From a virus, in IMG/VR virus record IMGVR_UViG_3300033064_002330, positions 1 to 58,251 of that record: a DNA stretch of 58,251 nucleotides; one strand, 5' to 3'. Positions 142-55,871 of this stretch are shown here, piece by piece. Position numbers and translations under genes: made by a program. The stretch's first letter is position 1; each line of letters begins with the position of its first letter. The notes beneath the pieces are model-generated. The model worked only from the letters and a program-made list of their open reading frames with translations. It was not told the origin of the DNA and did not search any database.

Positions 142-1585
142 ATGTCCGCCGGACGAGGCGACCTGCCGCCGGATCCTCGACGAGGTCGGCCTGCCGCCGA
201 CGGCGTTGATCCACTCCGGGCACGGGTTGCAGGTTTGGTGGGCATTCAAGGAACCCCTGACGTTCGACACCGCGAAGGAACGCGCCGTCGCGTATCGCCT
301 TTCCGAGGCGTGGGGCCGAACGATCCAAGGCGTCGCGCATCGGGCGGGCGGTTACCGTCTCGACTCCGTCTACGACCTGGGCAGAATCTTCCGGGTGCCC
401 GGCACGACGAACAACAAGTCGACGCCGGTCCCCGTGACGGTCCTCGAGTTCGACGACTCGCGTCGATACGTCGAGGACGATTTCGAGGCGCACCTGCTGG
501 ACTATGTCCTGCCGCCGGACAAGGCGGCCGACTTTCCGATGATCGCGGCGGCGCGCGGCGATTGGCCGGAGGTCAACCTCCGGGCTGAATTCCCTCTGAT
601 CCCGCACGAGGCCCTTGTCGAGAACGATCAGGTGTATGCCGACCTCTGGAACCACAAACGCAAGGACCTCGACGCCGAGGACCTGTCGGCGTGGGATATG
701 GCCCTTGCCCATTACCTGACGCGGGTTTCGTGGCCGGTTGACGCCGTCGCCGCGATCCTTGTCCGGCACCGTCAGAAATGGGGGGACACGTCCGACAAAG
801 TCTACCGCGTCGACTACTATCAACGCACGATCGCGAAGGCGCGCCTGTCACAGCAAGTCGATATGACACGCGAAAACGCGGCGGAGGTCGTCGCCGACGA
901 GGATGCGTCGCACGAGGACCGGGTCGCGGCGATCGGCGCCCGCCTCGGGTTGGCCCTGACGCGGATCGAGAGGGTGTCCGGGACGCCCTCCGTCTATCGG
1001 TTCCACGTTGACGGCGACGTTTGCTCGATCCCGGCAACGTCGTTCGTGGATCAGCGCAAGGTGCAAGGGGCCCTGTTCGACCTCTGCGCTAAGATGCCCC
1101 GCGCGGTCAAGAAGGACGAACACCCGTCCTGGCTGACGATCACGAACGCGATCGGCGCCGTCGCGATCCCGGTCGACGCGGGCGCCGACGCGACGGACGA
1201 CGGCGAGTTGGTCAGCACCCTCCGCGATTTCCTGAACGGTTGGCCGCCGCGGGCGATCCCGTCCGGGACGCCGATCGAGAATCCGGAGCAGCCTTTCATT
1301 CGGGACGGTTGTATTTGGTGGAAGCTTGAAGCATTCATGGGCTACCTCCGCAACGCCCACGTCCGCGACACGCGCCGGTCGATCGCGCAACGCCTCGGGA
1401 TGCTCGGGGCGGAACGCTGGACGGCCAAAGTCTACGGGCGCGGCCGGGACGAGACGACGAACAGTTTCCACAAGATCGCCGTCGACTCGATCGACGGCCT
1501 CCGGGCGGCGGAGGTCAACGTCAACGAACTGATTGCTGGCGCGTTCGCGACGGACGACGGGTCGATCGACGACTCCGGCGTTTAG
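2..1585 (+). CDS. AEP-type DNA primase/polymerase, main part
   Basis: This is the larger part of a gene that begins at 57920; joined across the circle the product is 591 residues. It resembles archaeo-eukaryotic primases of the RepB/PrimPol type, which make and often extend primers at phage and plasmid origins. In full-length numbering the metal-binding DLD is at 101-103, SGHG at 136-139, and a third acidic residue D189 is followed by RVPGTTNNKS at 195-204, the usual order of AEP motifs. Residues about 270-345 look like a PriCT-type helical domain, and the C-terminal third is unassigned. No separate DNA polymerase gene is visible, so this enzyme may also polymerise (inference). It is followed by a box-rich gap and the SF1 helicase operon. 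Confidence 0.85.
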   Translation, partial: GVGLGPADLGEKARVGNDDDPKRGVTGAAGLVALVADLDFAGDHKKQCPPDEATCRRILDEVGLPPTALIHSGHGLQVWWAFKEPLTFDTAKERAVAYRLSEAWGRTIQGVAHRAGGYRLDSVYDLGRIFRVPGTTNNKSTPVPVTVLEFDDSRRYVEDDFEAHLLDYVLPPDKAADFPMIAAARGDWPEVNLRAEFPLIPHEALVENDQVYADLWNHKRKDLDAEDLSAWDMALAHYLTRVSWPVDAVAAILVRHRQKWGDTSDKVYRVDYYQRTIAKARLSQQVDMTRENAAEVVADEDASHEDRVAAIGARLGLALTRIERVSGTPSVYRFHVDGDVCSIPATSFVDQRKVQGALFDLCAKMPRAVKKDEHPSWLTITNAIGAVAIPVDAGADATDDGELVSTLRDFLNGWPPRAIPSGTPIENPEQPFIRDGCIWWKLEAFMGYLRNAHVRDTRRSIAQRLGMLGAERWTAKVYGRGRDETTNSFHKIAVDSIDGLRAAEVNVNELIAGAFATDDGSIDDSGV

Positions 1586-1742
1586 GCGTTTAGCACGTTA
1601 CGCACGCGTCGGCGCGCGCGCAACGTGCGCGTGAGGAGTTCCCTAAACCGTAAACTGCGGGCGCACACGTTGCTCTGTGAAACTGTAAACCGGGCCCTCG
1701 TCGAAATTCGACGGTTTAACGAACGCCCTTTCGGGCTAAACG
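1580..1742. promoter_or_regulatory. GTTTA-box array 1 between primase and helicase operon
   Basis: The 187 bp gap after the primase holds seven GTTTA/TAAAC boxes: forward at 1580, 1588 and 1714, reverse ending at 1648, 1655, 1690 and 1741. The fullest is GTTTAACG at 1714-1721. They sit among small inverted repeats: CGTCGAAATTCGACG at 1699-1713 (7 bp arms around one base) and GCCC-TTTC-GGGC at 1725-1736. The same boxes occur in array 2 (16727-16986). Such arrays usually bind a regulator or a replication initiator; which one is not shown by the sequence. I see no clear -35/-10 pair here. Confidence 0.6.
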
Positions 1743-1772
1743 CGGGGGCGTTCACAAAACTGGAGGCGCGCA

Positions 1773-2051
1773 ATGCAAGGACTGACAGTCGTGATCCGGC
1801 GTGATCCGCCGAATGGGTATTCATACAAAGTCGCCCTCGCAATACCCGGAATCGCCGTCCCCCTCGATCACCCGGAGGGGAACAAACCGACGGCCCGCGA
1901 GGCGTTGGCGAAGGCGTTCGGCGTTGCCGAGAGGGCGATCGACAAGGTCGAACTGTTCGAGCAGTTGACCGAGGACGACAGCACTCCGGCGCCTGTTATC
2001 ATCGGCGGCGACGGTCAGCCGTTGCACCTCGCGGACGAGGCGTCGGCATGA
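1773..2051 (+). CDS. Small protein of unknown function
   Basis: A 92-residue acidic protein with no family I recognise. The ATG has a good Shine-Dalgarno (TGGAGG, 1762-1767). The stop overlaps the start of the SF1 helicase gene as ATGA at 2048-2051, so the two are translationally coupled. It opens the operon just behind GTTTA-box array 1. The N-terminal half (residues 1-45) looks like a short beta-rich domain and the rest is helical and acidic. A helicase accessory role is only a guess from position. Confidence 0.6.
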   Translation: MQGLTVVIRRDPPNGYSYKVALAIPGIAVPLDHPEGNKPTAREALAKAFGVAERAIDKVELFEQLTEDDSTPAPVIIGGDGQPLHLADEASA

Positions 2052-3670
2052 GGCGACCCCTCGACCTGCAACCGATCAGCGAACACCTCCGGGTAGTAGG
2101 CCCGCCGGGCACCGGGAAGACGAGGTTCCTCACCCGCGAGGTCGAACACGACGCGCGCGAGTATGGATCCGACAACGTCGTCGCGGTCAGTTTCACGAAG
2201 GCCGCGGCGGCGGAGTTGGCCTCGCGTGTCGAGACGGTCGACCCGGACAATATCGGGACGCTTCACGCGTTGGCTTATCGCGCGATCGGGCGACCGGACG
2301 TCGCCGAGGACGGGCCGCACCTGAAGGAGTTTTCCGAGGCCTATCCTGATTACCCTATGGCGGCCGGGTTCGGCGATACGGAAGACCTCGAGTTCGGGAC
2401 GATGGGGACCACCGACGGCGACAAACTCCTCGCCCGTTACGGGCAGGCCCGGAACCTCGAGATCCCGCGCGCCGGTTGGTTCGACGACGTGAAGGGGTTC
2501 GCCCACGCGTGGGAGGAATACAAGGCCGACTCCGAGACGGTCGACTTTACCGATATGATCGAACTCGCCGTCCAGGAAACGACGGCGGCGCCCGGTTACC
2601 CGGCCTGCATCATCGCCGACGAAGCGCAGGACCTCTCGCGCCTACAGTTCCGACTCCTCTGCCATTGGGCGGGCGCGACCGAAAAGGTCGTGATGGCCTG
2701 CGACCCCGATCAGTCGATTTACGGTTTCGCGGGTGCCGACCCGGACGTCTTCCTCGAGGTCAAACCGAAGAAGCAGAAGGTCCTCGACCAATCGTATCGC
2801 GTCCCGCGCGCCGTCCACGCCTACGCCCACCAGTTGATCCGCCGGATCCAGCGCCGGGAGGATTTCGCGTACCTGCCGAAGCCGGAGGACGGCGCCGTTT
2901 ACAGCGGCCGATCGGCCGACACGTTCCGAAACCCCGGCCGACTGATTAAGCGATGGGAGGATCACCTCGCCGCGGGCGACTCCGTCCTCGTCCTGGCACC
3001 GTGCGCGTATATGCTCCGGCCGACCGTCGAACTGCTGAGACAAAACGCGATCCCGTTCGCCAACCCCCTCCGCAAGAAAAGGGGCGATTGGAACCCTCTC
3101 GGGAAGCGCGGCGAGGGGTCGACCGTGCAGGCCCTCCTCGATTGGTTGTCACCGCACCGTTTCGGCGATCGCCTCTGGTCGACGCACGAGGTCAAGCGTT
3201 GGGCGACCGTCGTCGCGAGGGTGTTCCGGCGCGGGTCGGGCGAGACGATTCGCAATATGCCCGAGGAGTGGACGGACGCGCGGGTATATGAATGCGTCCT
3301 CGCCTGCGTGAAGGACGACGCGGACTTTTCGGCGGGCGCGTTCGGTAGTATCGGCGGCGCCGTCGATTGGTTCCAACAGCACTTGAAGGCCGCGCGCAAG
3401 GCTCCGGCGGAGTTCGCCTGCAACGTCGCCCGCCGTCGCGGGATCGACGCCGTCGCCGAACCGCCGCGCCTGTGGGTGGGGACCTGCCATTCTTACAAGG
3501 GCGGCGAGGCCGATCACGTCTACGTTTGGCCGGACCTATCGCAACAAGGTTTCAACGAACTACAGCACGACCCCGACCCGACGATCCGCCTCTTTTACGT
3601 CGCCTGCACGAGGGCGAAGAAGACGCTGACCCTCGGCCATTCCGCCTCGGCGCAGGCATTCAACTGGTGA
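2048..3670 (+). CDS. SF1 (UvrD/PcrA/Rep-like) DNA helicase
   Basis: A 540-residue superfamily 1A helicase that should move 3' to 5' on single-stranded DNA using ATP. Walker A GPPGTGKT is at 18-25, motif Ia SFTKAAAAELASR follows near 48-60, Walker B DEAQD is at 191-195, and CDPDQSIYGFAGA (motif III) is at 218-230. SYRVP (motif IV) follows, then CHSYKGGEADHV (motif V) and FYVACTRAKK (motif VI) near the C-terminus. At 540 residues it is shorter than full UvrD (about 720), so some accessory subdomains are reduced. The start overlaps the preceding gene by four bases. Together with the primase and the RuvC-like gene it forms a replication/recombination cluster. Confidence 0.92.
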   Translation: MRRPLDLQPISEHLRVVGPPGTGKTRFLTREVEHDAREYGSDNVVAVSFTKAAAAELASRVETVDPDNIGTLHALAYRAIGRPDVAEDGPHLKEFSEAYPDYPMAAGFGDTEDLEFGTMGTTDGDKLLARYGQARNLEIPRAGWFDDVKGFAHAWEEYKADSETVDFTDMIELAVQETTAAPGYPACIIADEAQDLSRLQFRLLCHWAGATEKVVMACDPDQSIYGFAGADPDVFLEVKPKKQKVLDQSYRVPRAVHAYAHQLIRRIQRREDFAYLPKPEDGAVYSGRSADTFRNPGRLIKRWEDHLAAGDSVLVLAPCAYMLRPTVELLRQNAIPFANPLRKKRGDWNPLGKRGEGSTVQALLDWLSPHRFGDRLWSTHEVKRWATVVARVFRRGSGETIRNMPEEWTDARVYECVLACVKDDADFSAGAFGSIGGAVDWFQQHLKAARKAPAEFACNVARRRGIDAVAEPPRLWVGTCHSYKGGEADHVYVWPDLSQQGFNELQHDPDPTIRLFYVACTRAKKTLTLGHSASAQAFNW

Positions 3671-3674
3671 ACCT

Positions 3675-4460
3675 ATGGCACCGATAAAGAAGGGTGGCCG
3701 CCGCGGCATGACGGCCGACGACCTGAAGGGCCTTGGTTGGGATATGGCCGACCCGGACAACCCGAAGCCTCCGGCCGTGACCGGCGGCCCGGCGCCCGTG
3801 CCGTCCGACGTCGAACTGCCGGTCGCCCTATACGGGATCGACCCGTCGATCGTCTCAACCGGGATCGCCTACGTTCGTTGCGATCGCCCCTACGTGAAGA
3901 CGTGGCGCGTCCGGCCGGATCGCAACCCGTGGGGGAAGGAGTGGGCGCCGCGGCCGTCGGAGCAACACGATTGGAACACCCTCCGACTCCGGGCCCTGTT
4001 CCGGCGAGTGTCGCGGATCCTGCACGGGGCGGAGGCGCCGTCCGTTGCTCAACAGTCGAAGGTCGCCCGCCCGGCCGATCAGGTGATCGTCGAGGACACC
4101 TACTTCGGGCCAAACTCCGGGCGGGCGGCCGTCGCCCTTCTCGGCAAGGCTCACGCGGCCTGTCTGTCGGCGGCGGAGTGGGCGGCGGACCTGTTCCTCG
4201 ATGACCCTCGAGCCGTCCGGGCGGCCTGGACGTCGGAGGTCCTCGTGCCCGACGACGTGCGACGCCGGATCCGGGAGCAGTTTAAGGGCGACGCCCGGCG
4301 CAAAGAGGTTAAGGCCGCGCGTTGGGCCTACGCCGTCGAGTGGTACGTCGCCCACGTCGGCCCGTGCCCGTACCTGGACGGTCTCACCCAACCGGACGAA
4401 CGCGACGCGTTCGCGTTGGCCGTCGCCGTCGCGGCGGAAATAACCGCCGGGAACGCTTGA
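3675..4460 (+). CDS. RuvC-like Holliday-junction resolvase
   Basis: A 261-residue protein with the RuvC branch of the RNase H fold. The catalytic acids can be placed: D56 in YGIDPSIVSTGIAYV, E140 in VIVEDTYFG, and D241/D244 in DERDAFALAVA. Such enzymes resolve four-way junctions and branched DNA before packaging. The first 45 residues form a low-complexity extension; an alternative ATG at 3708 would shorten it by 11 residues, and neither start has a strong Shine-Dalgarno. It lies four bases after the helicase stop, in the same operon, and is followed by a palindromic promoter. Confidence 0.82.
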   Translation: MAPIKKGGRRGMTADDLKGLGWDMADPDNPKPPAVTGGPAPVPSDVELPVALYGIDPSIVSTGIAYVRCDRPYVKTWRVRPDRNPWGKEWAPRPSEQHDWNTLRLRALFRRVSRILHGAEAPSVAQQSKVARPADQVIVEDTYFGPNSGRAAVALLGKAHAACLSAAEWAADLFLDDPRAVRAAWTSEVLVPDDVRRRIREQFKGDARRKEVKAARWAYAVEWYVAHVGPCPYLDGLTQPDERDAFALAVAVAAEITAGNA

Positions 4461-4486
4461 CGTGTCACCGTGACACGTAGTAGTAT
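4457..4486 (+). promoter_or_regulatory. Promoter with embedded perfect palindrome
   Basis: A -35 box TTGACG (4457-4462) and a -10 box TAGTAT (4481-4486) are 18 bases apart. Between them is a perfect palindrome, ACGTGTCAC-C-GTGACACGT (4460-4478), with 9 bp arms around one base. An operator filling the spacer of a promoter implies repression by a dimeric regulator. The candidate regulator is the HTH protein made from the next gene (autoregulation), which is an inference. Confidence 0.72.
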
Positions 4487-4540
4487 CGGTGCCCGTGTTG
4501 CGGAACGCGGGTAACGTTCGACAGAAGGGAGGAACACCCC

Positions 4541-4927
4541 ATGACAAAGGACACCTACTCCGTTCGAGAAGCGGCCTACGTCCTCGACGTGTCGGTCACC
4601 CAGGTACACCGGATGATCGAGTCGGCGGAGCTGACCGCATTCACGCAAGGCGAAAGCGCATTACAGGTTGAATGCGCGAGTCTGGCTGACGCCTGCGCGA
4701 AGCGCGCGAAGCCGATGCCCGCCCAGTATGCGGTCGTGATAGAACTGTCGGATTTCATCCTCCAAGCGGACGTGTCGGACGAAATGGCCGCATTCATTGC
4801 GCGGACAATTCAGGAGGCGGTCGCCGACGCCGACCTTGCGGACAACAGCATTATTCACGAGTTGAAATTCGGCGTAAAACTCCTCGCCGACGTGGCGATC
4901 CGAGGCCGGTCGATTGCGTTCGATTAG
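4541..4927 (+). CDS. HTH (excisionase/MerR-like) DNA-binding protein
   Basis: A 128-residue protein. Residues 6-36 (YSVREAAYVLDVSVTQVHRM and onward) form the winged-helix start typical of excisionase/MerR-like HTH_17 domains, which recognise DNA with the helix at about 18-27. The C-terminal 70 residues are a helical acidic domain that I cannot assign, possibly for dimerisation. Shine-Dalgarno GGGAGGAACACCCC precedes the ATG. The gene stands directly behind a promoter with a palindromic operator, so it is a good candidate for a self-controlling phage regulator. No integrase is present, so a true excisionase role is unlikely. Confidence 0.7.
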   Translation: MTKDTYSVREAAYVLDVSVTQVHRMIESAELTAFTQGESALQVECASLADACAKRAKPMPAQYAVVIELSDFILQADVSDEMAAFIARTIQEAVADADLADNSIIHELKFGVKLLADVAIRGRSIAFD

Positions 4928-4952
4928 CCAATCCTACGGGAGGAACGACCCG

Positions 4953-5456
4953 ATGAATAAGCGCGATAATATGTACCTGTTTGTGATGGGGATATGCGAG
5001 GGATCGCCGGGCGGCCCGATCGGGACCGGCGCATCGTTGCAGATATTGCACGGCGAAGGCGTCGCCGACGATCGCGACACGGTCCTGCGAAAGGTGTCGG
5101 AGGTCTCGATCCCGCACGAAGACGTCGGGACGCAGTTGGTCGCCGACCTGCGCGCGGCCGTCGACGGGATCGCCTGGGCGGTTGGCGAGGCCGAACGGCA
5201 CAACGGGTTCCCGGCCGTCGTCTACACTGACTCGCGGTTTGTCGAGGTGATCGTGCAGGAAAGCGGCGCGGACGCGCCGGGTAACGTCGTAACGTTGGTC
5301 GGGCAGTTGCTCGGACAGGTTCACGAACACGGCCTCGAGGTCCGTTGGTGCCCGGCGTTCGCGAACCGGGCGAAGGCGCCCGCCAAGACGGCCCTGCACA
5401 CGGTCCTCGGGAAGGCCCTGCCGGGTTGGCTGTTTCGAGGGGCGGCGAACCGATGA
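4953..5456 (+). CDS. RNase H-like fold protein, possibly inactive
   Basis: A 167-residue protein. The N-terminus (GICEGSPGGPIGTGASLQI) matches the first strand and loop of RNase H1, normally DGSxxGNPGxGG. VVYTDSRFVEVI near residues 89-100 matches the TDSxYV strand. The first catalytic aspartate would be E, and the usual conserved ME helix is not clear, so activity is doubtful. Start chosen at ATG 4953 behind CGGGAGGAACGACCCG. The stop overlaps the sulfotransferase-like start (ATGA). The family call is from motif similarity by eye only. Confidence 0.5.
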   Translation: MNKRDNMYLFVMGICEGSPGGPIGTGASLQILHGEGVADDRDTVLRKVSEVSIPHEDVGTQLVADLRAAVDGIAWAVGEAERHNGFPAVVYTDSRFVEVIVQESGADAPGNVVTLVGQLLGQVHEHGLEVRWCPAFANRAKAPAKTALHTVLGKALPGWLFRGAANR

Positions 5457-6388
5457 AGACGATCATCACTGGCCTGATGCGAAGCGGGACGAACTACCTC
5501 GCCGACGCCGTGTCGGCGGCGACCTGGGTCGACGGCGAGTCGCTTCCGGCCCTGCACGAACCTTTCAACCGCGATTGGCAAGGCGGCCCGGAACACCCGG
5601 ATTGGGACGACGACACGCGGGCGTCGATCGAGAATCGGGTGCAATACGTCTGCCGACACTCCGGGCATTACGGCGACCTGAACGGTCCCGAGTTCCAGGA
5701 ACTCGGCGGGTCTGTGGCCGCACGGGTGACCGGCGTCGCGAATGCCGTGAACGACCAATATGGGGCCTGCGACGTTTGGCGGGTCATGCAGTTCCCCTGG
5801 TGGGGGCCGTTGTCCGTCGTCCTCCGCGGGATCCGCGTCCTGTACATCGAACGGTCTCCGTTGGGTTGGTTGTCCTCGGCGGCCCGGACGATCGTCCTCG
5901 AATCGCGCCTGCCGTTGGTCCTGCCGAGGATCGCCGACGTGATCGCCGACGAGGAGCCGTGGCCGGGCCACGCCGGGTGGTGTGACCTCGGGCGTTCCTG
6001 GTGTGCGGAGGCCGGACACGAGGGCGACGAAGCGACGCGCCTCGCGCCCCTGTACGTTGCGGCGGCCTATCACGCGACCGAGACGGATTGGCAATACAAC
6101 GCCCTGAAGGACGAACTCGACAAGGCGCGCGGCGACGACCTGATGTTTGTCCAGTATGACCAGTTGGTCGCGGCGCCGGAGGTGTATTGGCCGCGCGTCT
6201 TCGCGTTTGTGGGTGCCGATCCCGACTCGCCGTTCCCCAACCCGATCGACACGGCGCAGGAGATTTCGTCGCGGACGTTCGCCGGGTCGGTTTGGACGGC
6301 GGCCGACGTCGACACCGTGCTTGCCGACTGCGTCAGGTTTCAGTCGCGATCATGGCGTTTGGCCGCGGAGGAGGGCGACGATGCGTAA
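5453..6388 (+). CDS. Sulfotransferase-like P-loop protein
   Basis: A 311-residue protein. Residues 5-16 (ITGLMRSGTNYL) match the 5'-phosphosulfate-binding loop of PAPS-dependent sulfotransferases. VLYIERSPLGWLSS (129-142) matches their 3'-phosphate-binding segment, with R134 and S141 in the expected places. The middle holds many Trp residues (WGG, PWWG, WPGHAGW), as in carbohydrate-binding pockets, and this part is not assigned. If active it would move sulfate from PAPS to a hydroxyl on a sugar or small molecule. Rare in phages; it sits in a coupled operon with an ASCH protein and a DNA methyltransferase. Substrate unknown. Confidence 0.68.
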   Translation: MKTIITGLMRSGTNYLADAVSAATWVDGESLPALHEPFNRDWQGGPEHPDWDDDTRASIENRVQYVCRHSGHYGDLNGPEFQELGGSVAARVTGVANAVNDQYGACDVWRVMQFPWWGPLSVVLRGIRVLYIERSPLGWLSSAARTIVLESRLPLVLPRIADVIADEEPWPGHAGWCDLGRSWCAEAGHEGDEATRLAPLYVAAAYHATETDWQYNALKDELDKARGDDLMFVQYDQLVAAPEVYWPRVFAFVGADPDSPFPNPIDTAQEISSRTFAGSVWTAADVDTVLADCVRFQSRSWRLAAEEGDDA

Positions 6389-7139
6389 GACCTCCGAGGC
6401 CGTCCGCCTGCGGTATGTGTTTCCGAAGGGCGCCGACGTCGACCGGGACGTGTTCGTCGAGTGGGTAAATCGCCTCGACCGTTGGGCCGTCGACAAGTTG
6501 GCACCGTCGACCCGCGACCTGTGGATGGGTCTCGGCCATTTCGGGTCGCCGGTCCGGGCCCTGTCGATCAAACAACCGTGGGCGCGCCTGTTGACCGAAG
6601 CGCCCGTCGGCGCCGACGTGCCCGCGAAGACGATCGAGTTCCGATCGACGCCGACTCCGCACCGCGACGGCGTCCTGCCGATCGCCCTGCATTCGTCGCT
6701 ACACCCCGTCAAGGGTTGGCAGGACCTCGTCAGCCGTTACCGTCTCGATCGGATCGTCCGCCCCTACGGCACGAAGCCGGGCGGCGGGTTGTGTCCGCCG
6801 GTCGCGAACGCGACCCTCGAGGCCCTCGATCCGATCCCGTCGCCGGATCCGGGCGACCTCGGCCGGATCGTGGGCGTCGCCCTGTTGGGCCCGTCGACGA
6901 AACTCGAGGGGGACGCCGACTCGCCGCGCCTGAAGGATCATCCCGGTTACCCGGCCGGTTACCCGGTCGATTTCTCGGAGCCGCGGTACGGTTGGCCGAT
7001 CCGCGCCGCCGTCCGCCTCGAGAGGTCGATCCCGGTCGTCGGCCGCCTCGGCCTGTGGGATATCAACGGGCAGGACCCGCGCGTTTACTCCGCCCTCTGC
7101 GAATACCTCGCGGCCGGGCAGTTCGAGGTGCCCGCGTGA
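6381..7139 (+). CDS. ASCH/PUA-like domain protein
   Basis: A 252-residue protein. From about residue 58 it shows the ASCH pattern: VRALSIKQPWARLL (58-71), KTIEFRS (83-89), LPIALHSSL (99-107), and near the end YGWPIRAAVRL followed by IPVVGRLGLWDI. ASCH domains have a PUA-like barrel thought to bind RNA or modified bases. The N-terminal 55 residues are an unassigned helical extension. It overlaps the sulfotransferase-like gene by 8 bases and the methyltransferase by 4 (GTGA), so it belongs to that operon. Confidence 0.72.
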   Translation: MRKTSEAVRLRYVFPKGADVDRDVFVEWVNRLDRWAVDKLAPSTRDLWMGLGHFGSPVRALSIKQPWARLLTEAPVGADVPAKTIEFRSTPTPHRDGVLPIALHSSLHPVKGWQDLVSRYRLDRIVRPYGTKPGGGLCPPVANATLEALDPIPSPDPGDLGRIVGVALLGPSTKLEGDADSPRLKDHPGYPAGYPVDFSEPRYGWPIRAAVRLERSIPVVGRLGLWDINGQDPRVYSALCEYLAAGQFEVPA

Positions 7140-8716
7140 TCCATTTCGAGAATGCCCTGACGACGCTGCACCGCGGCGACGCCCTGGACGTCCTGCGCGA
7201 CCTGCCCGACGCGTCGTTTCACTGCGTCGTGACGTCGCCCCCCTATTACGGCCTGCGGTCCTACGGCATTCCGCCGCGCGTTTGGGGCGGCCGGGACGGG
7301 TGTCGGCACAAGTGGGGGGAACCGATGCGACACGGTCTGCGCGGGTTGCGGGGACAGTCGGGGGCGGGCGGTAACAAACAGGCCCGCGTCGCCGACGCCG
7401 GGCGGGCGGGAGGGTCGGGGGGCGGCGGGCAATACTGCGCCCTCTGCGGGGGTTGGTTGGGTTGTCTCGGCAACGAACCGCAACCGTGGCAATACACGCA
7501 GCACCTCGTCGAGTTGTTCCGCGAGGTCCGGCGCGTCCTGCGGCCCGACGGCGTCTGTTGGCTGAACCTGGGGGACTGTCATTCGTCCGAGACCCTCGAC
7601 GCGGAGTCGCCCGGTTACCGGCGCCCGCCCCAATCGCCGATGGCGCCGCCGCAGATCAAACCTCGCGACCTCGTCGGCGTCCCGTGGGCGGCGGCCCTGG
7701 CCCTCCGGGCTGACGGTTGGGCCCTGCGATCGGCGTCGCCGTGGATCAAACCGAACGCGCAACCCGAACCCGTTCGGGATCGGCCGACGACCGGGCATGA
7801 ATACCTGTTCCAACTGACGCCCGGCGTCGACGTCGAGTATTGGACGCACCCCCGGAAGAGGGGCGTCCGCGGCCGGGTGTCGCCGCCGCGCGAGTGGGAG
7901 TGGGTTCACAGGAACACGGGCGCCGTCTCGCAACACCCGCCGGTCGCGAACAAGGACCTCGCGAAGCGCCTGTGGTTCCGTCGGTCCCTTTGGTCGGCGC
8001 GTTACGTTCACTACGACCCCGACGCCGTGCGGAAGGCGGCGGCCGGATCCAAGGACGGGACCGATTACGACGCCCGCAACCGGCGGACGTCCGACGCGAT
8101 GGCCGAGGCCGTCGCCTACTGGGGCGACACGATCGCCGCGATCGAGGCGGGCGACGCCCTGGCCCTCCTGCCCGACGGGTCGCCGGGCGCGTTTACCGTG
8201 AACGTGGGGTCGTGCGCGGCGGCGCATTTCGCCGTGTTCCCTTACGACCTCGTCGTCCCGTGCATACTGTCGTCGACGTCGCATCGGGGCGCCTGCCCGA
8301 CGTGCCTCGCCCCTTACTCGAGGGTCGTCGAAATCGACAGGTCATTCCGCGGCGATTGGATGGCCGGGAAGCGCGACACGCAGGAACAGACCGGGCGGGT
8401 CGCCGTGTCCGGCGTCGGGACGTCGGGTAAGTACAGTCGGACGACGACCGGGCACCTGCCGACCTGCGCCTGCGAGTGGGCGCCGCCGGTCCCCTGTCGC
8501 GTCCTCGATCCGTTCGCCGGGACCGGGACCGTGCCCGCCGTCGCGCAAAACCTCGGGAGGCACGGCGTCGGGATCGAGGTCTCGGAGGACTTCTGCGATA
8601 TCGCAACCGATCGCCTGCGGTCGGGTAACGCCCGGCGCGTCCCGATCCGCAAGAAGAAGCAACCCAAACAGGCCCAACTCGACCTTCAGGTCGATCAACT
8701 CCGGATGTTTGAGTAG
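7136..8716 (+). CDS. DNA methyltransferase, TSPPY type (N4-C or N6-A)
   Basis: A 526-residue site-specific amino-methyltransferase of the beta arrangement. The catalytic motif TSPPYYGLR is at 33-41, REVRRVLRPDGVCWLNLGD follows, and the SAM-binding motif DPFAGTGT is at 458-465 with GIEVSEDFCDIA after it. Between them are several Cys/His pairs (CRHKWGE, CALCGGW, CPTCLAPY, CACEW) that could bind zinc. Product is N4-methylcytosine or N6-methyladenine; the motif alone does not decide. The GTG start overlaps the previous stop. No restriction endonuclease is nearby, so protection of phage DNA against host restriction is the likely role. Confidence 0.9.
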   Translation: MIHFENALTTLHRGDALDVLRDLPDASFHCVVTSPPYYGLRSYGIPPRVWGGRDGCRHKWGEPMRHGLRGLRGQSGAGGNKQARVADAGRAGGSGGGGQYCALCGGWLGCLGNEPQPWQYTQHLVELFREVRRVLRPDGVCWLNLGDCHSSETLDAESPGYRRPPQSPMAPPQIKPRDLVGVPWAAALALRADGWALRSASPWIKPNAQPEPVRDRPTTGHEYLFQLTPGVDVEYWTHPRKRGVRGRVSPPREWEWVHRNTGAVSQHPPVANKDLAKRLWFRRSLWSARYVHYDPDAVRKAAAGSKDGTDYDARNRRTSDAMAEAVAYWGDTIAAIEAGDALALLPDGSPGAFTVNVGSCAAAHFAVFPYDLVVPCILSSTSHRGACPTCLAPYSRVVEIDRSFRGDWMAGKRDTQEQTGRVAVSGVGTSGKYSRTTTGHLPTCACEWAPPVPCRVLDPFAGTGTVPAVAQNLGRHGVGIEVSEDFCDIATDRLRSGNARRVPIRKKKQPKQAQLDLQVDQLRMFE

Positions 8717-8730
8717 CGGGAGGAACACCG

Positions 8731-9147
8731 ATGGACAGCACAAAGAAGCCGGACGCAGCGAAGCCGCCGCACGTAGACGCACCCGCCGAGACGGCGACGA
8801 CACCCGCCGAGACGGCGACGACACCGACGCACGTCGACGCGCCGACGGCCGCCGAGTTGTTGGTTTCGGCCCTGTTGAACGGCCTCGAGTCGGCGAAGGC
8901 TATCATGTTGGTGCAGAATGCGGGGGACGAGGACGATCCGAAGACGCAGGTCGCGTCGGAACTGTTGAAGACGGCCGCCCTCCTGACGGTCGCCGCGACC
9001 CGGTTGTCAGACGCCGATATGTCAGACAATATCGACCGGACCGACGTCGACACGGCCTGCGCCCGCGTCGTCCGCGCCGCGCAGAAGGTCCGCACCACGA
9101 TCGGCGACGTCGGGAAGAAGAAGCCCGCGCCCGCAGAAGACGCATAG
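8731..9147 (+). CDS. Hypothetical protein with Pro/Ala/Thr repeat
   Basis: A 138-residue protein that I cannot assign. Residues 15-40 are low complexity and contain a duplicated PAETATT unit. Residues 42-128 form a predicted helical domain without cysteines. The C-terminus is lysine/alanine rich (KKKPAPAEDA). The ATG at 8731 has the recurrent leader GCGGGAGGAACACCG. It is followed by a 94 bp gap with a GC palindrome and a second copy of the same leader type. Confidence 0.6.
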   Translation: MDSTKKPDAAKPPHVDAPAETATTPAETATTPTHVDAPTAAELLVSALLNGLESAKAIMLVQNAGDEDDPKTQVASELLKTAALLTVAATRLSDADMSDNIDRTDVDTACARVVRAAQKVRTTIGDVGKKKPAPAEDA

Positions 9148-9170
9148 AAGCCGCCTGACGCATTCGCACC

Positions 9171-9184
9171 CCGCCCCGGGGCGG
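9171..9184. other. GC palindrome in gap
   Basis: CCGCCCCGGGGCGG is a perfect 14 bp palindrome 24 bases after a stop codon. It has no loop and no T run, so it is a weak candidate terminator; it could also be a protein site. Confidence 0.35.
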
Positions 9185-9241
9185 TCGGTCGCCGACGACG
9201 CCGATCGGCCGCCTCGGGGCGCAGAAACGGGAGGAACACCC

Positions 9242-9907
9242 ATGCAAGGCAAACTGCGACGCCGGAACCTGTTGGGCGAGGTCCTTGGCGACGCCCTTCT
9301 GATCGTAGTCGTGATCGTCGTCGCCGGGTTGGCCCTGACGGCCGTCCTGTGGATTTCGTCGTTTGTTAGCGCCCAAACGATGCCCCCCGTTGGGGACGCG
9401 TTCACCGTCGCGGCCCGCGCCGCCCTCGTGAACCCGGCCGTGCCGGAGTGGAAGAAGGACCTGTTAACCCAAGGGTTGACACATCGAGGCGAGGGACGCG
9501 AGACGTCGGCCCGCCTCGTCTTCTATCACCCGCGCGAGGCCTGCACCGAGGAAACCCACGCCCGACGGCTGGCCTCCGGCGACGCCTGCAAGTGTCAGAA
9601 ATGGATCGGGACGGCGTCCGGGACCCTCGTCCGGCCGGGCGTCGCGTCCTGCACCGTGTCGGCCCGCAAGGCGGGTAAGTGGTGGGGGTCGTGGGTGTGG
9701 ATCGAGGGCCTTGGCCTGCACAAGGTCGAGGACGTGTTCCCGGAGTCGGGATCGCACGACGTCTTTGATATCGCCGCGCCCTGGCCCGTGTCCTCGAGTT
9801 ACGCGGAGTGGCTCGCCGACCGGCGGGCCGTGCGGTTCGCCGAACACGTCCAGTACCGCGGCCGCGCCGTCGTCACCGTGAAACCTCGAGGGGGTTGGTC
9901 ACAATGA
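9242..9907 (+). CDS. Membrane-anchored 3D-domain (double-psi barrel) protein
   Basis: A 221-residue protein with a basic N-terminus (KLRRRN) and one strong membrane helix at about 18-43, so the rest should face the cell exterior. Residues about 88-200 resemble the 3D/RlpA-MltA double-psi barrel: TASGTLVRPG, then WVWIEGLGLHKVEDV and SHDVFDI, with D164, D173 and D176 as candidate catalytic acids. Related barrels cut or bind peptidoglycan. Located in the early block far from the lysis cassette, it may act on the cell wall or during lysis regulation (inference). Five cysteines in the outer part may form disulfides. Start is set by CGGGAGGAACACCC. Confidence 0.62.
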   Translation: MQGKLRRRNLLGEVLGDALLIVVVIVVAGLALTAVLWISSFVSAQTMPPVGDAFTVAARAALVNPAVPEWKKDLLTQGLTHRGEGRETSARLVFYHPREACTEETHARRLASGDACKCQKWIGTASGTLVRPGVASCTVSARKAGKWWGSWVWIEGLGLHKVEDVFPESGSHDVFDIAAPWPVSSSYAEWLADRRAVRFAEHVQYRGRAVVTVKPRGGWSQ

Positions 9908-10263
9908 AAAAATGCCCGATCGGCCCGATACAGAATTACACTCCGGACCGGGCCGGGTGTTGCGCCCACGTCCGGCAGGTCGAGGTCCTCGCGGGGATCG
10001 CGGCCGTGACCTGCGGACGCGTCCACCTGCCCGAACTCAAAGGGGTCGTCGAATTCGCCTACGGGTGCGACGTGATCGGGGCCGACCCGGTCGCCCTCGC
10101 GGCGACCTACATACTCGCCGGGCAACCCGTCCCGGTCGAACTCGACGTGCAGGAACTCCTGTGCGTTTGGCAGGTTCACGCCTGCCTCGGACACCGCGAG
10201 TCGGTCCCGTACGTGCAGGCCCTTCAGGCGTTACGCCGAGGAGGTCCGTCTGATGCTGACTGA
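9904..10263 (+). CDS. Small cysteine-containing protein, unknown
   Basis: A 119-residue protein with six cysteines (for example RAGCCAHV at 17-24) and no family I recognise. The ATG overlaps the stop of the 3D-domain gene as ATGA, and its own end overlaps the next membrane protein gene by 11 bases. Coupling on both sides suggests a shared cell-envelope function, but nothing in the sequence proves it. No signal peptide or membrane helix. Confidence 0.55.
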   Translation: MKKCPIGPIQNYTPDRAGCCAHVRQVEVLAGIAAVTCGRVHLPELKGVVEFAYGCDVIGADPVALAATYILAGQPVPVELDVQELLCVWQVHACLGHRESVPYVQALQALRRGGPSDAD

Positions 10264-10579
10264 CTACTTCGACGGCGGCGACCTTCTGCTGGTGGCGACC
10301 GGTTTCTTCCTGTGGGGGGCGATCCGACGGCCGGGATCCGCCCGCCGGACGCTGGAACTGATCGCCGTCGGGGCGATCGTCCTCCTGTTGGTGGCGATCC
10401 CTCGCGCCCTGTCCCGCCTGTTCGCCGGACTTGCTGACGTGGTCGGCGCATTCTACGACACGGCACCCGTCCCGTTTGAACCGTTTATCGAACGGGTCCT
10501 GACCGAAACCGGGTTCCGGACCCCTAAGGAGGACGCACCCGATGGCCGAAACAGTACCGCCGACACCCGACCCCGTTGA
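10253..10579 (+). CDS. Small two-helix membrane protein
   Basis: A 108-residue protein with two predicted membrane helices at about 9-24 (GDLLLVATGFFLWGAI) and 34-53 (ELIAVGAIVLLLVAIPRAL), separated by a short basic loop, then an amphipathic tail. Topology resembles small holins or inner-membrane phage proteins, but it is away from the lysis cassette. The last 38 bases overlap the next gene in another frame. Confidence 0.55.
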   Translation: MLTDYFDGGDLLLVATGFFLWGAIRRPGSARRTLELIAVGAIVLLLVAIPRALSRLFAGLADVVGAFYDTAPVPFEPFIERVLTETGFRTPKEDAPDGRNSTADTRPR

Positions 10580-13721: not shown

Positions 13722-14594
13722 ATGTTTCCAGACCCGCAGGATAAGCCGGACACCCCGGACGGGGGGCGCGTCAAAGGCCCGCCCGCCCCTCCCGCGGGCG
13801 CTAAGGCCGATCCCCCGGCCGACGGCCCGGATTCGGGCGCCGAACTCGAGCAGGGCGACGGTGTCGACCTTCTCGCCGTGGGCGAAGACGGTCGCCCGGC
13901 ACTCGAGGGAGGGACGCAGTTCGTCGACCTCACCCTCGAGAAGGTCGACGTCGTCGACGCTGACGGCACCCTCGTCCCCGCCGACCATGATCCGTCGGAC
14001 CTGCAGGTCGCGGTCCTGACGATCGCCGAGGGGACCGACGTCGACGACCTGCCCGAGGCCGTCCTCGTCGATTTCCGGGTCATTGGACGCAGCCGACAGG
14101 CCCGACGCCGTGCCGTGCGGTCCTGCGTGATCCAATCGCCGAGGATCGGGCATCGGGTCCTTGGGCGCCTGTTCGGCGTCAACAAGGACACGATCACAAA
14201 CGACCTCCGGGCGATCAGTTCGGCGACCCTCGAGAGGGTGACCAATCACGACGCCGCGGAGGAAATCGGAGAGGCGTTCAACTTCTATACATTCATGCGA
14301 GACCTCGCCCTCGCCGATATGGCGCAGGTCAAACCAGGAAGCAATATGCGCGCCGCCCATTTCCGCAACGCGATCACCTCACAGGAGAGGATCGACGAGG
14401 TCGCCTTCCGGTTGGGCCTCTGGCGAGAGGCCCCGAAGGAACTTATCATCGGCGGACAGGCGGCCGATCCCCGTAAGGCGATCGCCGCGACCCTCTCGAA
14501 CGAGGAACTCGCCGACGCCTTGACCGGCCGGTCGAGGAGGGAGGCGGCCAATGGCGACAACGGAGAAGACGTCCCCGATCCGACCGGCGACTGA
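13722..14594 (+). CDS. Putative terminase small subunit
   Basis: A 290-residue protein. The first 110 residues are acidic, proline-rich and probably disordered. Residues about 130-170 hold a helix-turn-helix (GHRVLGRLFGVNKDTITNDL), fitting DNA recognition at a packaging site. The rest is helical, as in oligomer-forming small terminases. Identification rests on this HTH and on position: it overlaps the large terminase gene by 44 bases. No Shine-Dalgarno is evident; a weak TTGCGC-N17-TAACCT pair at 13687-13715 lies so close that the mRNA would be nearly leaderless. Confidence 0.65.
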   Translation: MFPDPQDKPDTPDGGRVKGPPAPPAGAKADPPADGPDSGAELEQGDGVDLLAVGEDGRPALEGGTQFVDLTLEKVDVVDADGTLVPADHDPSDLQVAVLTIAEGTDVDDLPEAVLVDFRVIGRSRQARRRAVRSCVIQSPRIGHRVLGRLFGVNKDTITNDLRAISSATLERVTNHDAAEEIGEAFNFYTFMRDLALADMAQVKPGSNMRAAHFRNAITSQERIDEVAFRLGLWREAPKELIIGGQAADPRKAIAATLSNEELADALTGRSRREAANGDNGEDVPDPTGD

Positions 14595-16032
14595 ACCCGA
14601 CGATTGGGCGGCCCTCGAGGAACTGAATCGAGAGGAGTCGATCGACCGGGTATTCGAGGAAGCGACTCGCAGCACGGTCGCGTTCGCCGCCCTCTTCGCG
14701 CCGACGATCGCCCATAAACTGAAGGGCCTGATCCCCTTCCGCCCCCACGGTTACCAATGCGACCTGACCGACGAACTCGACCGCGGCGGGAAGACAATCC
14801 TCCTCAAGGCGAGGCAGATTGGTATTTCGACGACGATCATGATTCAGAAACTCCGACGCGCCATATTCGACGGCGCGACGGTCCTCGTCGTTTCACGCAA
14901 CGAAGATGCGTCGAAGGAACTGGTGAAAATGGCGCAGGACGCGTGGGATAACCTACGCTTCCCGACGGGCGTCGTCCAGACGACCAAGAATACCCTCGAG
15001 GTTGGCTTCTCCAGCGGCGGCCGAATCAAGGCGATCCCCTCGAGCAAGAACGCCGGTCGAGTAATGTCCGCGAGCGACCTCGTGATCGACGAGGCGGCGT
15101 TCCTGCCGTGGCAAGAGGAAATGTGGCGATCGGTCCGGCCGACGGTCACCCACGGATTCTCGATCGTCGTCGTGTCGACGCCGGATATGGAAGGCGACGT
15201 CTTCTCGCGCCTGTGGGATGAAGCGGGCGATCCAGAGTCGGATTGGGTGCGGTTCGAGTGGCCGTGGCGGACCTGCCCGGCCTACGACGACGAGTGGTAT
15301 GCGGCGAACCGGCCTGACTACACGGCGTCGGATTGGGCGCAGGAGTATGAATGCCAATTCGGCAACGCCTCGGACGCCGTGTTCGGGCGGGTGTGGATCG
15401 ACGCGGCGATCGCCCTCGCCGAGGCCGATCCGTACCTGCCTCCGGACGCGCCTGCATTCGACGTCTACGCCCAGGGGATCGACCTGTCGGGCGAGGGGCG
15501 CGACTCCTCGGTGATTACGACACTCGATATCCGAGAGGCGCCCTTCTGGCTTGCCGACGTGCGGGCGTGGGAGGTCCTGCCCGCGCCGTTGCTCGAGGCG
15601 GAGGTCGTGAAGGCGATTGGCGAATTCGAGGTCGAACCGTGGATCGACCGGACCGGCCTGGGTTGGGGGATCACGCAACACCTGAACGTCCCGCACAAGG
15701 CCGTCGCGATCACCGCCGGGTCGCAGGTTGGCGGGACGGCGACGGAGCCAAACATCCCGCGGTCAGTCCTGATAAACAACCTCGTGATGGGCCTCGAGAA
15801 TGGTCAACTCCGGATCCCCGCCAACGAACAGGAAACGATCCGAGGCCTCCGAACGCATCGGTGGACGAAGAAACGCGGGAAGGCCGTCGACTTTGTGGAC
15901 GCCCTGGCCCTGGCGTATTGGGCGGCGACCGAGGCCCGGCGGACGCGCGAGTGGTGGGAGGATCGGTCGCAATGGGATCGGTACAAGGGGATCACGACCG
16001 GACGGGCCGACGTCGAGGCCGCCGGACAATAG
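14551..16032 (+). CDS. terL: Terminase large subunit
   Basis: A 493-residue packaging ATPase-nuclease. The Walker A variant KARQIGIST is at 86-94, Walker B LVIDEAAF at 177-184, and motif C SIVVVSTPD at 204-212. The C-terminal RNase H-like nuclease shows D311 (GIDLSGEGRDSS), D366 (WIDRTG) and D450 (DFVDALALAYW), the three expected metal-binding acids. It docks on the portal and pumps and cuts DNA. Length is normal for the family. Start ATG 14551 lies inside the small subunit gene, behind GGAGGCGGCC. Confidence 0.95.
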   Translation: MATTEKTSPIRPATEPDDWAALEELNREESIDRVFEEATRSTVAFAALFAPTIAHKLKGLIPFRPHGYQCDLTDELDRGGKTILLKARQIGISTTIMIQKLRRAIFDGATVLVVSRNEDASKELVKMAQDAWDNLRFPTGVVQTTKNTLEVGFSSGGRIKAIPSSKNAGRVMSASDLVIDEAAFLPWQEEMWRSVRPTVTHGFSIVVVSTPDMEGDVFSRLWDEAGDPESDWVRFEWPWRTCPAYDDEWYAANRPDYTASDWAQEYECQFGNASDAVFGRVWIDAAIALAEADPYLPPDAPAFDVYAQGIDLSGEGRDSSVITTLDIREAPFWLADVRAWEVLPAPLLEAEVVKAIGEFEVEPWIDRTGLGWGITQHLNVPHKAVAITAGSQVGGTATEPNIPRSVLINNLVMGLENGQLRIPANEQETIRGLRTHRWTKKRGKAVDFVDALALAYWAATEARRTREWWEDRSQWDRYKGITTGRADVEAAGQ

Positions 16033-16033
16033 G

Positions 16034-16732
16034 ATGCGCACCGTGCCGACACAGAAACAACTTGACGACCTCGGGCCGTGGTTCCAGCGCATCGAGTTCC
16101 CCGACGGGAAGACGGTCGGCAAGTGGGATACGCCGGGCCTGACGCGGATCCTGCTGAACGGAGCCGAAATCATTGCACGAGGGGCGCGGGTCCTCGAGGT
16201 GGGGGCTATGTCCGGCGGAATGACCAAGGTCCTCGAGCAGGATTTCGACGCGGAGGTTACCGCGATCGAGACCGACGTCCGGGCGTGTCGGCAGTTCGAG
16301 TTGGTGGCCGAGGCCTGCGACCTGACCGCGGAACTGATCGAGGGGGACATTCTCGACGTCGACGGCCTCGAAGAGGAATGGCCCTTGCACTATCGCGGCC
16401 CCTGGCCCGTCGCGATCCTCGCGGGCGTCTACTACCACTCACTACACCCGATCGCCGTCCTCGATGCGACGTGGAAGCATTGCACCGAACTGATGATCGT
16501 CGAGGGTTGGGTGATCCCGGTCGACGCGCCCAACGGTCGGGACCTCGTCGCGGAGTGGGTTGACAACTCGCCCGGCGCATTCTTCCGGTCGACCGGCGCG
16601 AACTGGTGGCGCCCGTCGGTGGCCTGCCTGTATGCGTGGGCGCACACCCTCCCCGACGTCCGGCACGTCGACCTGTTCTACCCGTCCTATGACGAGGCCG
16701 ACCGGGCGCACCTGCACGTTTGGCGGGTTTAG
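16034..16732 (+). CDS. Class I SAM methyltransferase, CmoB-like
   Basis: A 232-residue methyltransferase. LGPWFQRIEFPDGKTVGKWD (13-32) resembles the leader seen in CmoB/DUF1698-type enzymes, and RVLEVGAMSGGMT (52-64) is the SAM-binding glycine loop with E79 after strand 2. The acceptor is unknown; related phage enzymes are often linked to sugar or tRNA modification, which I cannot separate here. It begins one base after the terminase stop, so it is read with the packaging genes. The 280 bp box-rich region follows, and one box overlaps its last codons. Confidence 0.72.
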   Translation: MRTVPTQKQLDDLGPWFQRIEFPDGKTVGKWDTPGLTRILLNGAEIIARGARVLEVGAMSGGMTKVLEQDFDAEVTAIETDVRACRQFELVAEACDLTAELIEGDILDVDGLEEEWPLHYRGPWPVAILAGVYYHSLHPIAVLDATWKHCTELMIVEGWVIPVDAPNGRDLVAEWVDNSPGAFFRSTGANWWRPSVACLYAWAHTLPDVRHVDLFYPSYDEADRAHLHVWRV

Positions 16733-16986
16733 CAAGTTTAGCAAAACGAAGGGCCGTTTAGGCCCGGAATGCGAATCGACAATGAAAACACCCGTTTTGG
16801 GTTTTGCGAAACGGCCCCTGTTTAACGACTGTATAACGCAAACAGGGGGGTCGTTAAACCGCCGATTTCGCCGATACGGCGTCCGGCGTCTTCACACAGG
16901 GGTATATCGCCTACGCGGTTTAACGTTTAACGAAACTGCCTCGCCCGCTACCCGCGCGCGCGCCGACGCACGGGGGTACGTTAAAC
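16727..16986. promoter_or_regulatory. GTTTAACG-box array 2
   Basis: Eight boxes in 260 bp: GTTTAG at 16727, 16736 and 16756; GTTTAACG at 16820, 16918 and 16925 (the last two in tandem, sharing one base); and reverse CGTTAAAC at 16852-16859 and 16979-16986. The region between the methyltransferase and the next gene is the longest gene-free stretch (280 bp) and is visibly richer in A and T than its surroundings. The same boxes form array 1 at 1580-1742. A replication origin, a partition-like site, or a late-gene control region are the main possibilities. Confidence 0.65.
16751..16859. repeat. Nested inverted repeats within array 2
   Basis: Several perfect inverted repeats interlock: GGGCC-GTTTA-GGCCC (16751-16765, the loop is a box); GGGCCGTTT (16751-16759) with AAACGGCCC (16809-16817); CCCCTGTTT (16815-16823) with AAACAGGGG (16840-16848); and GTTTAACGAC (16820-16829) with GTCGTTAAAC (16850-16859). 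They cannot all form at once, so the segment can switch between alternative hairpins or cruciforms. Confidence 0.7.
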
Positions 16987-17419: not shown

Positions 17420-19171
17420 TTGGGAATCAAGGCCCGCGCCCGCGCGGCATATCAGGCCCTTCTCGGTCGCCCGTCCGCGCACGATCAAGGCGTCTTCGAC
17501 GCGTCCCCCCGTCGCGCTAACACGAACGACTCGACGACCCGGCCGATCGGGTCCGCCGTCCTGACGGACGCGACCGGAGAGGGGCGCCTGACGGCCCTCT
17601 CCCTCCTCGACTATTTCGCCGAGGTATTCACGCCTGCCACCGTCTGCATTACGAAGAGGCAGGAACAGGTCGCGGCCCTCGAGTATACGTTCCAGCCGCG
17701 TCAAGGCGAGGATCCCGAGGACAAGGCCGTCGAGGATCAGGTCCGGGCGGCCGTCGAATACTTCGGTTACGGCGGCGGGTTGGGCGGGCCGCGGTCCCTC
17801 TGGCGTACGTTCACCGACAAACTGATATGGTCGGCCCTGACGATCGACGCCGTCCCGTTGTGGGTTGACCGATCGACGGGCCCGATCGCCGGTCACCGAC
17901 TCTTGAACGGCCTGACGGTCGCCCCCGTCCTCGATCCGAAGGGTTGGGTGCCCAAACCTCCGGCCGTCGCTTACAAGCAATACTCGAACGGAAAACTCGT
18001 CGGTCAGTTCACGGCCGACGACCTGCACTATTTCGTCCTGCGGCCGCGCCCGAAAACGCCTTACGGGTTCCCGCCGACCGAGGCGATTGTTTCGTCTATC
18101 CTCACTTACCTGTACAGCGAGAATTGGAACCTCGATTTCTTTATCAACGGCGACAAGGATTCGGGCTATTGGGAAATGGCCGAGGGCCTGACGCCTCCGC
18201 AATGGCGACAGTTCGAGGAATTCATTAACGAACTCGACCCGTCGACGCCGGACGCGCGCGGGCACGGGAAGCCGGTCCCCCACGGGACGGTACATCACCC
18301 CTGGAAGGTCCGGTCGGATATGGAGTGGGATAAGCTCCAACTCCGGATAATTACGCTGACGGCGGCGATGTACGGGCTGAACGCGTCGACGATCGGGTTC
18401 GCCGCCGAGACTTACAAGTCGGCCGAGGAGGGTCAGGTCGAAGCGTCCCGCCGATGGGGCCTCGTGCCCCTGATGATATACGTTGGCGAGATTGCGAACG
18501 CCGTCCTCCGCGACCTGGGCCTCGACCTGATCGAGCATACATGGGCGCCCGAGGACGACGACCCCCTCGAACAGGCGACCGTGATACAAACCGCCGGGAC
18601 GTCCGTCCTCACTCGCAACGATGCGCGCCGCCGGTTGGGCGAGGACACGGTCGAGGACTCGCCCCTCGCGAATTGCCTTTACGAGGTCCTGCCGACCGGG
18701 ATCCTGGTGTTCCACGATCCGGACCGTCCGAACGAAAAGTACATGATCGAGGCGCCCAAGGATGAGGCCGCGTCGGACGATCCGGAGGCGGCCCTCGTCG
18801 AGGCGCCCGAGGACGACGAACTCGAGCCGGGCGACGTCCCGGCGGAACTCGAGCCGGGCGGCGACGATGATGCGATCGACGACGAGGCCGATCAGGCCCT
18901 TCGCCAATGGCGCCGCAAGGCGAGGGCCCGGATCCCGGCCGGGCGCCCCTGCCCGTTCGCGACGACGGCGATCCCGCCGCGGGCGCAGGTATACGTCGCC
19001 CAACGCCTCGAGCATTGCGAGACGCGCGCCGACGTGGACGCCGTGTTCGTCGCCGTGCGCGATCCCGCTAACCTGGGCCTGTCGCTGACGGACACGGTCT
19101 CGGAACTGCGCGGGATGGTCGAGTCGGCGATCGGCGAAATGGATCACCGGAGCAACGGAGGCGCGAAGTGA
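17420..19171 (+). CDS. Portal protein
   Basis: A 583-residue protein of the phage portal family: the twelve-fold ring at the capsid vertex through which DNA enters and leaves. Characteristic stretches are ALTIDAVPLWVDR, FTADDLHYFVLRPR, YGFPPTEAIVSSI, and AMYGLNASTIGF with a following acidic helix, in the usual order. The last ~130 residues are acidic (EDDELEPGDVPAEL) with a Cys-containing tail. TTG start at 17420 after GAGGTG; no better start fits the frame. It overlaps the next gene by four bases (GTGA). Confidence 0.88.
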   Translation: MGIKARARAAYQALLGRPSAHDQGVFDASPRRANTNDSTTRPIGSAVLTDATGEGRLTALSLLDYFAEVFTPATVCITKRQEQVAALEYTFQPRQGEDPEDKAVEDQVRAAVEYFGYGGGLGGPRSLWRTFTDKLIWSALTIDAVPLWVDRSTGPIAGHRLLNGLTVAPVLDPKGWVPKPPAVAYKQYSNGKLVGQFTADDLHYFVLRPRPKTPYGFPPTEAIVSSILTYLYSENWNLDFFINGDKDSGYWEMAEGLTPPQWRQFEEFINELDPSTPDARGHGKPVPHGTVHHPWKVRSDMEWDKLQLRIITLTAAMYGLNASTIGFAAETYKSAEEGQVEASRRWGLVPLMIYVGEIANAVLRDLGLDLIEHTWAPEDDDPLEQATVIQTAGTSVLTRNDARRRLGEDTVEDSPLANCLYEVLPTGILVFHDPDRPNEKYMIEAPKDEAASDDPEAALVEAPEDDELEPGDVPAELEPGGDDDAIDDEADQALRQWRRKARARIPAGRPCPFATTAIPPRAQVYVAQRLEHCETRADVDAVFVAVRDPANLGLSLTDTVSELRGMVESAIGEMDHRSNGGAK

Positions 19172-55842: not shown

Positions 55843-55871
55843 TTGACACCGTATTGTTGCCGTGTTACATT
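55843..55871 (+). promoter_or_regulatory. Promoter of HTH gene (P3)
   Basis: -35 TTGACA (55843-55848) and -10 TACATT (55866-55871) are 17 bases apart. It lies 35 bases before the HTH gene start. It lacks the TTTACAGGTGTAAA operator and so is controlled in another way. Confidence 0.75.

Follow-up and report, generated by a model that had tools for sequence, protein, structure and literature searches.

Two arrays of a common GTTTA-core box in the genome of an uncultured phage: candidate iterons of a two-site replication system

What is the role of a cluster of short repeats that begins in the stop codon of a phage primase gene, and why does the same box recur far away between packaging and head genes? 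To our knowledge, replication origins are unknown for most uncultured phages. One such phage is the source of the window analysed here, a stretch of 58,251 nucleotides from an IMG/VR virus record. A 141-nt direct terminal repeat at its ends identifies the window as a complete circular genome of 58,110 bp. All genes lie on the + strand according to a simple coding-potential call, and the primase gene (591 aa) spans the joint of the circular map. The window proteins have only distant matches and no close relative is known: positions 1400-9300 gave no blastn match among phage records, and searches with the major capsid and portal proteins returned no credible relatives apart from the portal of contig G010 and two weak matches. 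GC skew indicated no clear origin in this genome. The principal features are collected in Table 1. Elsewhere, a late gene (45246-47243) encodes two fused glycosyltransferase domains.

Table 1. Arrays, box groups and neighbouring genes in the window
Feature	Position	Strand	Remark
Array A1, seven GTTTA cores, both orientations	1580-1741		between primase and helicase operon
Tandem doublet GTTTAGGCGTTTA, spacing 8 bp	1580-1592	+	first box contains primase stop TAG (1583-1585)
Inverted tandem doublet CCTAAACCGTAAAC, spacing 7 bp	1642-1655	-	
Inverted pair GTTTAACG / GCTAAAC, spacing 23 bp, enclosing GCCCTTTCGGGC	1714-1741		
Array A2, eight GTTTA cores	16727-16986		between methyltransferase-like gene after terL and portal operon
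Primase	2-1585 (whole gene 57920 -> 58110/1 -> 1585)	+	primase/polymerase family match
Primase C-terminal part, predicted winged helix	1178-1582	+	candidate box-binding domain
Small gene, 92 aa, directly after A1	1773-2051	+	
UvrD-like helicase	2048-3670	+	phrog_1967
RuvC-like Holliday junction resolvase	3675-4460	+	weak match, phrog_159
Terminase large subunit (terL)	14551-16032	+	phrog_2
Methyltransferase-like gene between terL and A2	16034-16732	+	weak match
Portal protein, first of head genes after A2	17420-19171	+	phrog_2662
Helicase, start of conserved replication module	54044-55798	+	
phrog_23155-like gene, replication module	57017-57850	+	

A first-pass annotation of this DNA had described seven boxes of one type between the primase gene and the helicase operon, and a second array of the same element about 15 kb away. 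Both arrays were recovered. The cores of A1 begin at 1580(+), 1588(+), 1644(-), 1651(-), 1686(-), 1714(+) and 1737(-), three forward and four reverse, and comprise one GTTTAACG, four GTTTAG and two GTTTAC. Given this mixture, boxes of the ‘same type’ are boxes with a common GTTTA core and a variable 3′ side. A2, at a distance of 15 kb, has cores at 16727+, 16736+, 16756+, 16820+, 16855-, 16918+, 16925+ and 16982-, of which five of eight read GTTTAACG; A1 is the weaker of the two arrays. Both are built from doublets 7-9 bp apart together with inverted copies, and each starts with a box that overlaps the TAG stop codon of the preceding gene. The 200-bp stretch with the highest A+T content in the genome falls within A2, which is followed by a small ORF ahead of the portal gene; the A+T content of A1 is somewhat raised (0.41 vs 0.34), with a G+C-rich centre. 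The spacings of A1 and of reverse-complemented A2 have the steps 56/57, 7/7 and 63/63 bp in common, a match that is suggestive only (P 0.006-0.09, depending on the test). Within the 3′ end of the primase gene (1510-1530) lies AGGTCAACGTCAACGAACTG, which resembles the A2 doublet CGGTTTAACGTTTAACGAAACTG in a shorter form and may be a degenerate in-gene box pair.

The arrays are real and are not a product of chance. The GTTTA core has 41 matches genome-wide, and 15 of these fall in the two array gaps, which make up 481 bp or 0.8% of the genome (binomial P ~3e-21 for both gaps and 9e-11 for A1 alone). Exact GTTTAACG occurs six times, once in A1 and five times in A2, and exact GTTTAG has 7 of its 11 copies within the arrays. 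The largest number of GTTTA cores in 165 bp was four across 100 first-order simulations, mononucleotide shuffles of A1 contained a mean of 0.18 (maximum three), and a further 15 non-coding gaps examined in the window each have no more than one. A weight matrix built from A2 alone has its top two matches elsewhere in the genome in A1, and a matrix built from A1 has its top match elsewhere in A2. The first-pass annotation had expected hits with one mismatch to cluster in these two gaps only, as opposed to many boxes scattered elsewhere at background rate. Clusters are indeed confined to the two gaps for exact GTTTAACG and for the GTTTA core, the other 26 cores being scattered, mostly in genes, at background rate (a first-order model predicts a mean of 28.7 for the whole genome); the one-mismatch hexamer is uninformative, with 245 matches, so the clustering test is valid only for the stricter forms. 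A blind scan for clustered 7-mers ranked A2 second and A1 fifth in the genome. The strongest 7-mer repeat cluster of the genome, at 40751-41051, lies inside a large ORF (39126-41513) and is unrelated to the boxes.

Arrays of this kind recur next to the primase in relatives, with other boxes. A helicase profile gathered 80 viral loci. The order helicase (54044), phrog_23155-like gene (57017), primase, helicase (2048) is kept in contigs L005, G010 and G008, and in the window, L005 and G010 an array stands between primase and second helicase. Across relatives, short direct and inverted repeats form arrays either in the gap that separates primase from helicase or within the 3′ tail of a gene of the primase region, and the box differs by lineage. 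For example, Thermus-type contigs (L002, L003, L006 and L007) carry TTGCCAC, and the nine copies within 217 bp are all the copies in the 10.6-kb locus L002. Thermus phage Riverbug has TAGTCAG/TAGTCGG, with 10 of its 16 copies concentrated in 0.2 kb; Meiothermus phage MMP7 has TGTGACA; and L005 has TTATCCA, with 7 of 12 copies in the array. The box is GGCTTACAG in L141, L142, L143 and L150, TGTCAAAC in L146-type arrays, and AATTACA in L144, the locus of contig G010. Thermoanaerobacterium phage THSA-485A has the phrog_23155-like gene in common with the window, and its portal is related to that of the window. Directly 3′ of its primase/helicase, ten GTAACCG boxes form two groups on either side of an A+T-rich stretch; of the 11 copies of CGGTTAC in that genome, 10 fall in this array, which is its top cluster.

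Measured against dinucleotide shuffles, the array z scores are 60 for Riverbug, 45 for L006, 12 for L005, 9 for MMP7, 9 for L143 and 5 for the L144 gap; by this statistic L140, L145, L154 and L155 have no clear array. The relative nearest by helicase (L139, in G008) likewise has no clear array at primase/helicase. In L006 and Riverbug, the array is located inside the primase coding tail. Between the Thermus-type contigs and Riverbug the boxes change but the spacing stays at 8-21-46-8-(39 to 53)-8-46-21; all six MMP7 sites fit the Riverbug layout. A formal comparison of A1 and A2 with the Thermus-type/Riverbug spacing was not significant, and this spacing grammar is thus not claimed for the window. 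A search of viral contigs for the exact box-array pattern gave four matches (L012-L015), none of which is seen as a relative; that in L012 looks like an in-gene repeat. Two of these unrelated, lower-GC contigs have three GTTTAACGTTAAAC palindromes in a row over ~75 bp (L014:12046-12119 and L015:3039-3112). The L005 helicase match (G001 9682-10508) is split at query residue 222 by an in-frame insert of ~0.8 kb, which is probably an intein.

The second array has a counterpart in one relative. In G010 (34,128 bp), one AATTACA cluster lies between primase and helicase (2313-2473) and another between terL and portal (~28.8-29.1 kb). The portal of G010 belongs to the same family as that of the window (phrog_2662, E 7.9e-105), and its terL matches phrog_979 (E 1.5e-41) and gave no tblastn match with the window terL. 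Thus, the same two locations carry arrays in two phages whose boxes are unrelated and whose terL proteins do not match each other by tblastn. A second array was found in the window and G010 only; the search of the other relatives examined turned up arrays at the primase alone. No array was found at terL/portal in the TerL relatives L008 and L009 or in L228, where the two genes nearly abut. In L005, a second site at 27.7 kb amounts to an inverted pair of its box, not an array, and in G009 (L142) the box occurs elsewhere as single copies only. A repeat directly after terL in G008 was rejected as a second array, as it is a plain 16-bp tandem repeat of another sequence (GCAGTCAAGCACACAA, L221:16451-16513, with five of the six genome copies of CAGTCAA). 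MMP7 has three same-strand TGTCAC in a late-region gap (L130:15256-15331), with the core of its primase array; this trio is a possible small second site.

Several well-studied replication systems are organized in a comparable way. In phage-inducible chromosomal islands (PICIs), the origin consists of iterons immediately 3′ of the initiator gene, and the C-terminal domain of SaPI Rep recognises them (PMC6092414, PMC7581432). The window resembles these elements in having short repeats that immediately follow the primase gene, in the predicted C-terminal winged helix of the primase, and in an iteron sequence that varies between elements. SaPI/PICI iteron sets flank an A+T-rich melting region, and this classic form is seen in THSA-485A. 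Unlike SaPI Rep, which is an initiator helicase, the window protein is a primase with separate helicases; moreover, the window adds a second distant array, and the genomes compared here are phages rather than satellites. Satellite phage P4 offers the two-site arrangement: in its annotation (NC_001609), crr immediately follows the alpha primase gene on its 3′ side, ori separates the early genes from the late operon, and both carry the same octamer as doublets 9-10 bp apart and as inverted copies. The blind cluster scan applied to P4 ranked crr first and ori second. The window thus shares with P4 one iteron at two distant cis sites, one of them directly 3′ of the primase gene, and the use of doublets and inverted copies. 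The systems differ in the box, in binding domains that have no detectable sequence homology, in the fusion of primase and helicase in alpha, and in the place of the second array, which in the window lies between terminase and portal genes. GGTGAAC, the core of the P4 iteron, is also found ten times in a second strong cluster within Riverbug gene gp39 (L131:22901-23201).

A third precedent is Bacillus phage SPP1, in which gp38 binds two sites 12-13 kb apart, oriL and oriR. The latter breaks up the block of virion-assembly genes, and it has been proposed that gp38 on oriR halts forks and sets off the change to concatemer synthesis (PMC6316719, PMC3485210). The window likewise has two arrays, the second within the virion-assembly block, and a Holliday junction resolvase. 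In contrast, SPP1 uses gp38, gp39 and the DnaB-type gp40, with oriL inside the initiator gene; no gp38-, gp39- or DnaB-like match was found among the window proteins scanned, which were part of the proteome. In plasmid pRN1, the origin is 3′ of orf904 (PMC4234260). Both systems have an archaeo-eukaryotic-type primase with a winged helix and an origin, or candidate origin, of poorly conserved sequence just downstream, but pRN1 requires a 100-nt stem-loop rather than an iteron array. The window boxes, with their GTTTA core, are also not the TTATCCACA boxes of an origin for host DnaA; a DnaA-box-like array was found in L005 only. By analogy, the window appears to combine a primase-adjacent site of the PICI/P4 kind with an SPP1-like second site in the packaging/head block, and would work like all three systems; its assignment to any one of these families would be premature.

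The best candidate for the box binder is the primase, through its C-terminal winged helix, or else a different initiator encoded in the replication module. A structural model was made of the 135 C-terminal residues of the window primase together with 11 relatives. The model (mean pLDDT 76, core ~90) has the order strand-helix-helix-strand-strand, that of a winged helix. Among the solved folds closest to it are winged helices of ORC proteins and the C-terminal domains of SCCmec Cch and SaPIBov1 Rep (Z 6.0-6.5). These fold matches are weak, with a best Foldseek E of 0.089 and Z values below 7 that can arise by chance. The structure of the P4 origin-binding domain is absent among the fold matches listed, and hhalign of the 12-sequence profile against P4 alpha (one sequence) found no credible homology. 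Primases of L142 and L146, which have different boxes, agree at 83-93% in most N-terminal blocks and at 50-70% in the last four; those of L142 and L143, which have the same box, agree at 93-100% in the last four. Against this covariation, the recognition helices of L006 (PREMAYLLRR) and Riverbug (PREMALLLRR) are nearly identical and the boxes differ, so that specificity may come from the wing or from a different protein. Together, the modest fold matches and the covariation of C-terminus and box, set against the L006/Riverbug helix, make the primase the leading candidate, short of proof.

On this evidence, A1 and A2 are probably iterons bound by the initiator of a two-site replication system, most likely the primase. 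The C-terminal winged helix of the primase would bind both arrays and act with the helicases of the module. A1 would be the initiator site or origin, as at the SaPI/PICI origin and P4 crr, and A2 a second cis site. As for what A2 does there, it might be a second origin, like P4 ori; alternatively, it might be a late origin or a fork block like SPP1 oriR, helping circle replication to give way to concatemers for the terminase, or it might take part in late-gene control. The common box, its restriction to two gaps, the G010 arrays and the P4 and SPP1 precedents all favour the earlier proposal that a single protein acts at two distant sites bracketing the replication and packaging genes; that proposal named neither the protein nor its function.

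Control of transcription is a competing, though unlikely, explanation. Here the arrays would be operators of a phage regulator, and a small helix-turn-helix (HTH) protein would time the middle (helicase) and late (portal) operons. Each array does stand at the beginning of an operon, the window has three small HTH-like genes as candidate regulators (53317-53544, 55907-56140 and 4541-4927), and neither array contains a good sigma-70 promoter, compared with three in other gaps, so another control is possible. The arrays of L006 and Riverbug, however, sit within the primase coding tail, where no operon starts; early promoters have no array; and the position equals that of known origins. Among the HTH-like genes, that at 55907 directly follows a good promoter (55843-55871). 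A palindrome, TTTACAGGTGTAA(A/G), recurs in nearly identical form at the sigma-70-like promoters 49307-49335 and 50168-50196, overlapping each of them, as though one repressor acted on both early promoters.

It is quite improbable that A2 is a pac/cos packaging signal and A1 a second recognition site for the terminase. The place of A2, between the terL region and the portal gene in both the window and G010, would suit such a signal, but the primase array, the more widespread of the two, is then left unexplained, a terL/portal array is missing from the TerL relatives L008 and L009, and in THSA-485A, with a single array at the primase, terL and portal abut. RNA elements such as hairpins or terminators in the transcripts of both gaps are a very remote prospect: inverted pairs such as 16820/16855 and 1714/1737 could pair as RNA, yet there are also single boxes, and boxes of either orientation, the sense strand folds no better than its shuffles (z 0.04 to -1.2), no Rfam match was found, and the arrays contain no terminator-like site on the + strand. 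Centromeres also carry arrays of short inverted and direct boxes, which would fit a parS-like partition site or another plasmid-style site for a segregation protein. We consider this scarcely credible, given that no ParA/ParB-type match was found among the proteins searched and that a place 3′ of the primase is typical of origins.

A broader proposal is put forward tentatively, as a possibility on the doubtful side. The window and its relatives may represent a family of tailed phages with arrays at the primase and at the terminase/portal boundary, in which the initiator itself marks the site at which replicating DNA becomes packaging substrate, and in which boxes turn over with the primase C-terminal domain and positions stay fixed. 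A rule of searching both 3′ of the primase and in the terL-portal gap for a lineage-specific iteron array would make origins predictable from sequence. Fixed positions with changing boxes would also provide a natural series on how an initiator shifts its DNA target. Finally, the terL/portal array would offer a test case for the coupling of replication and packaging in phages.
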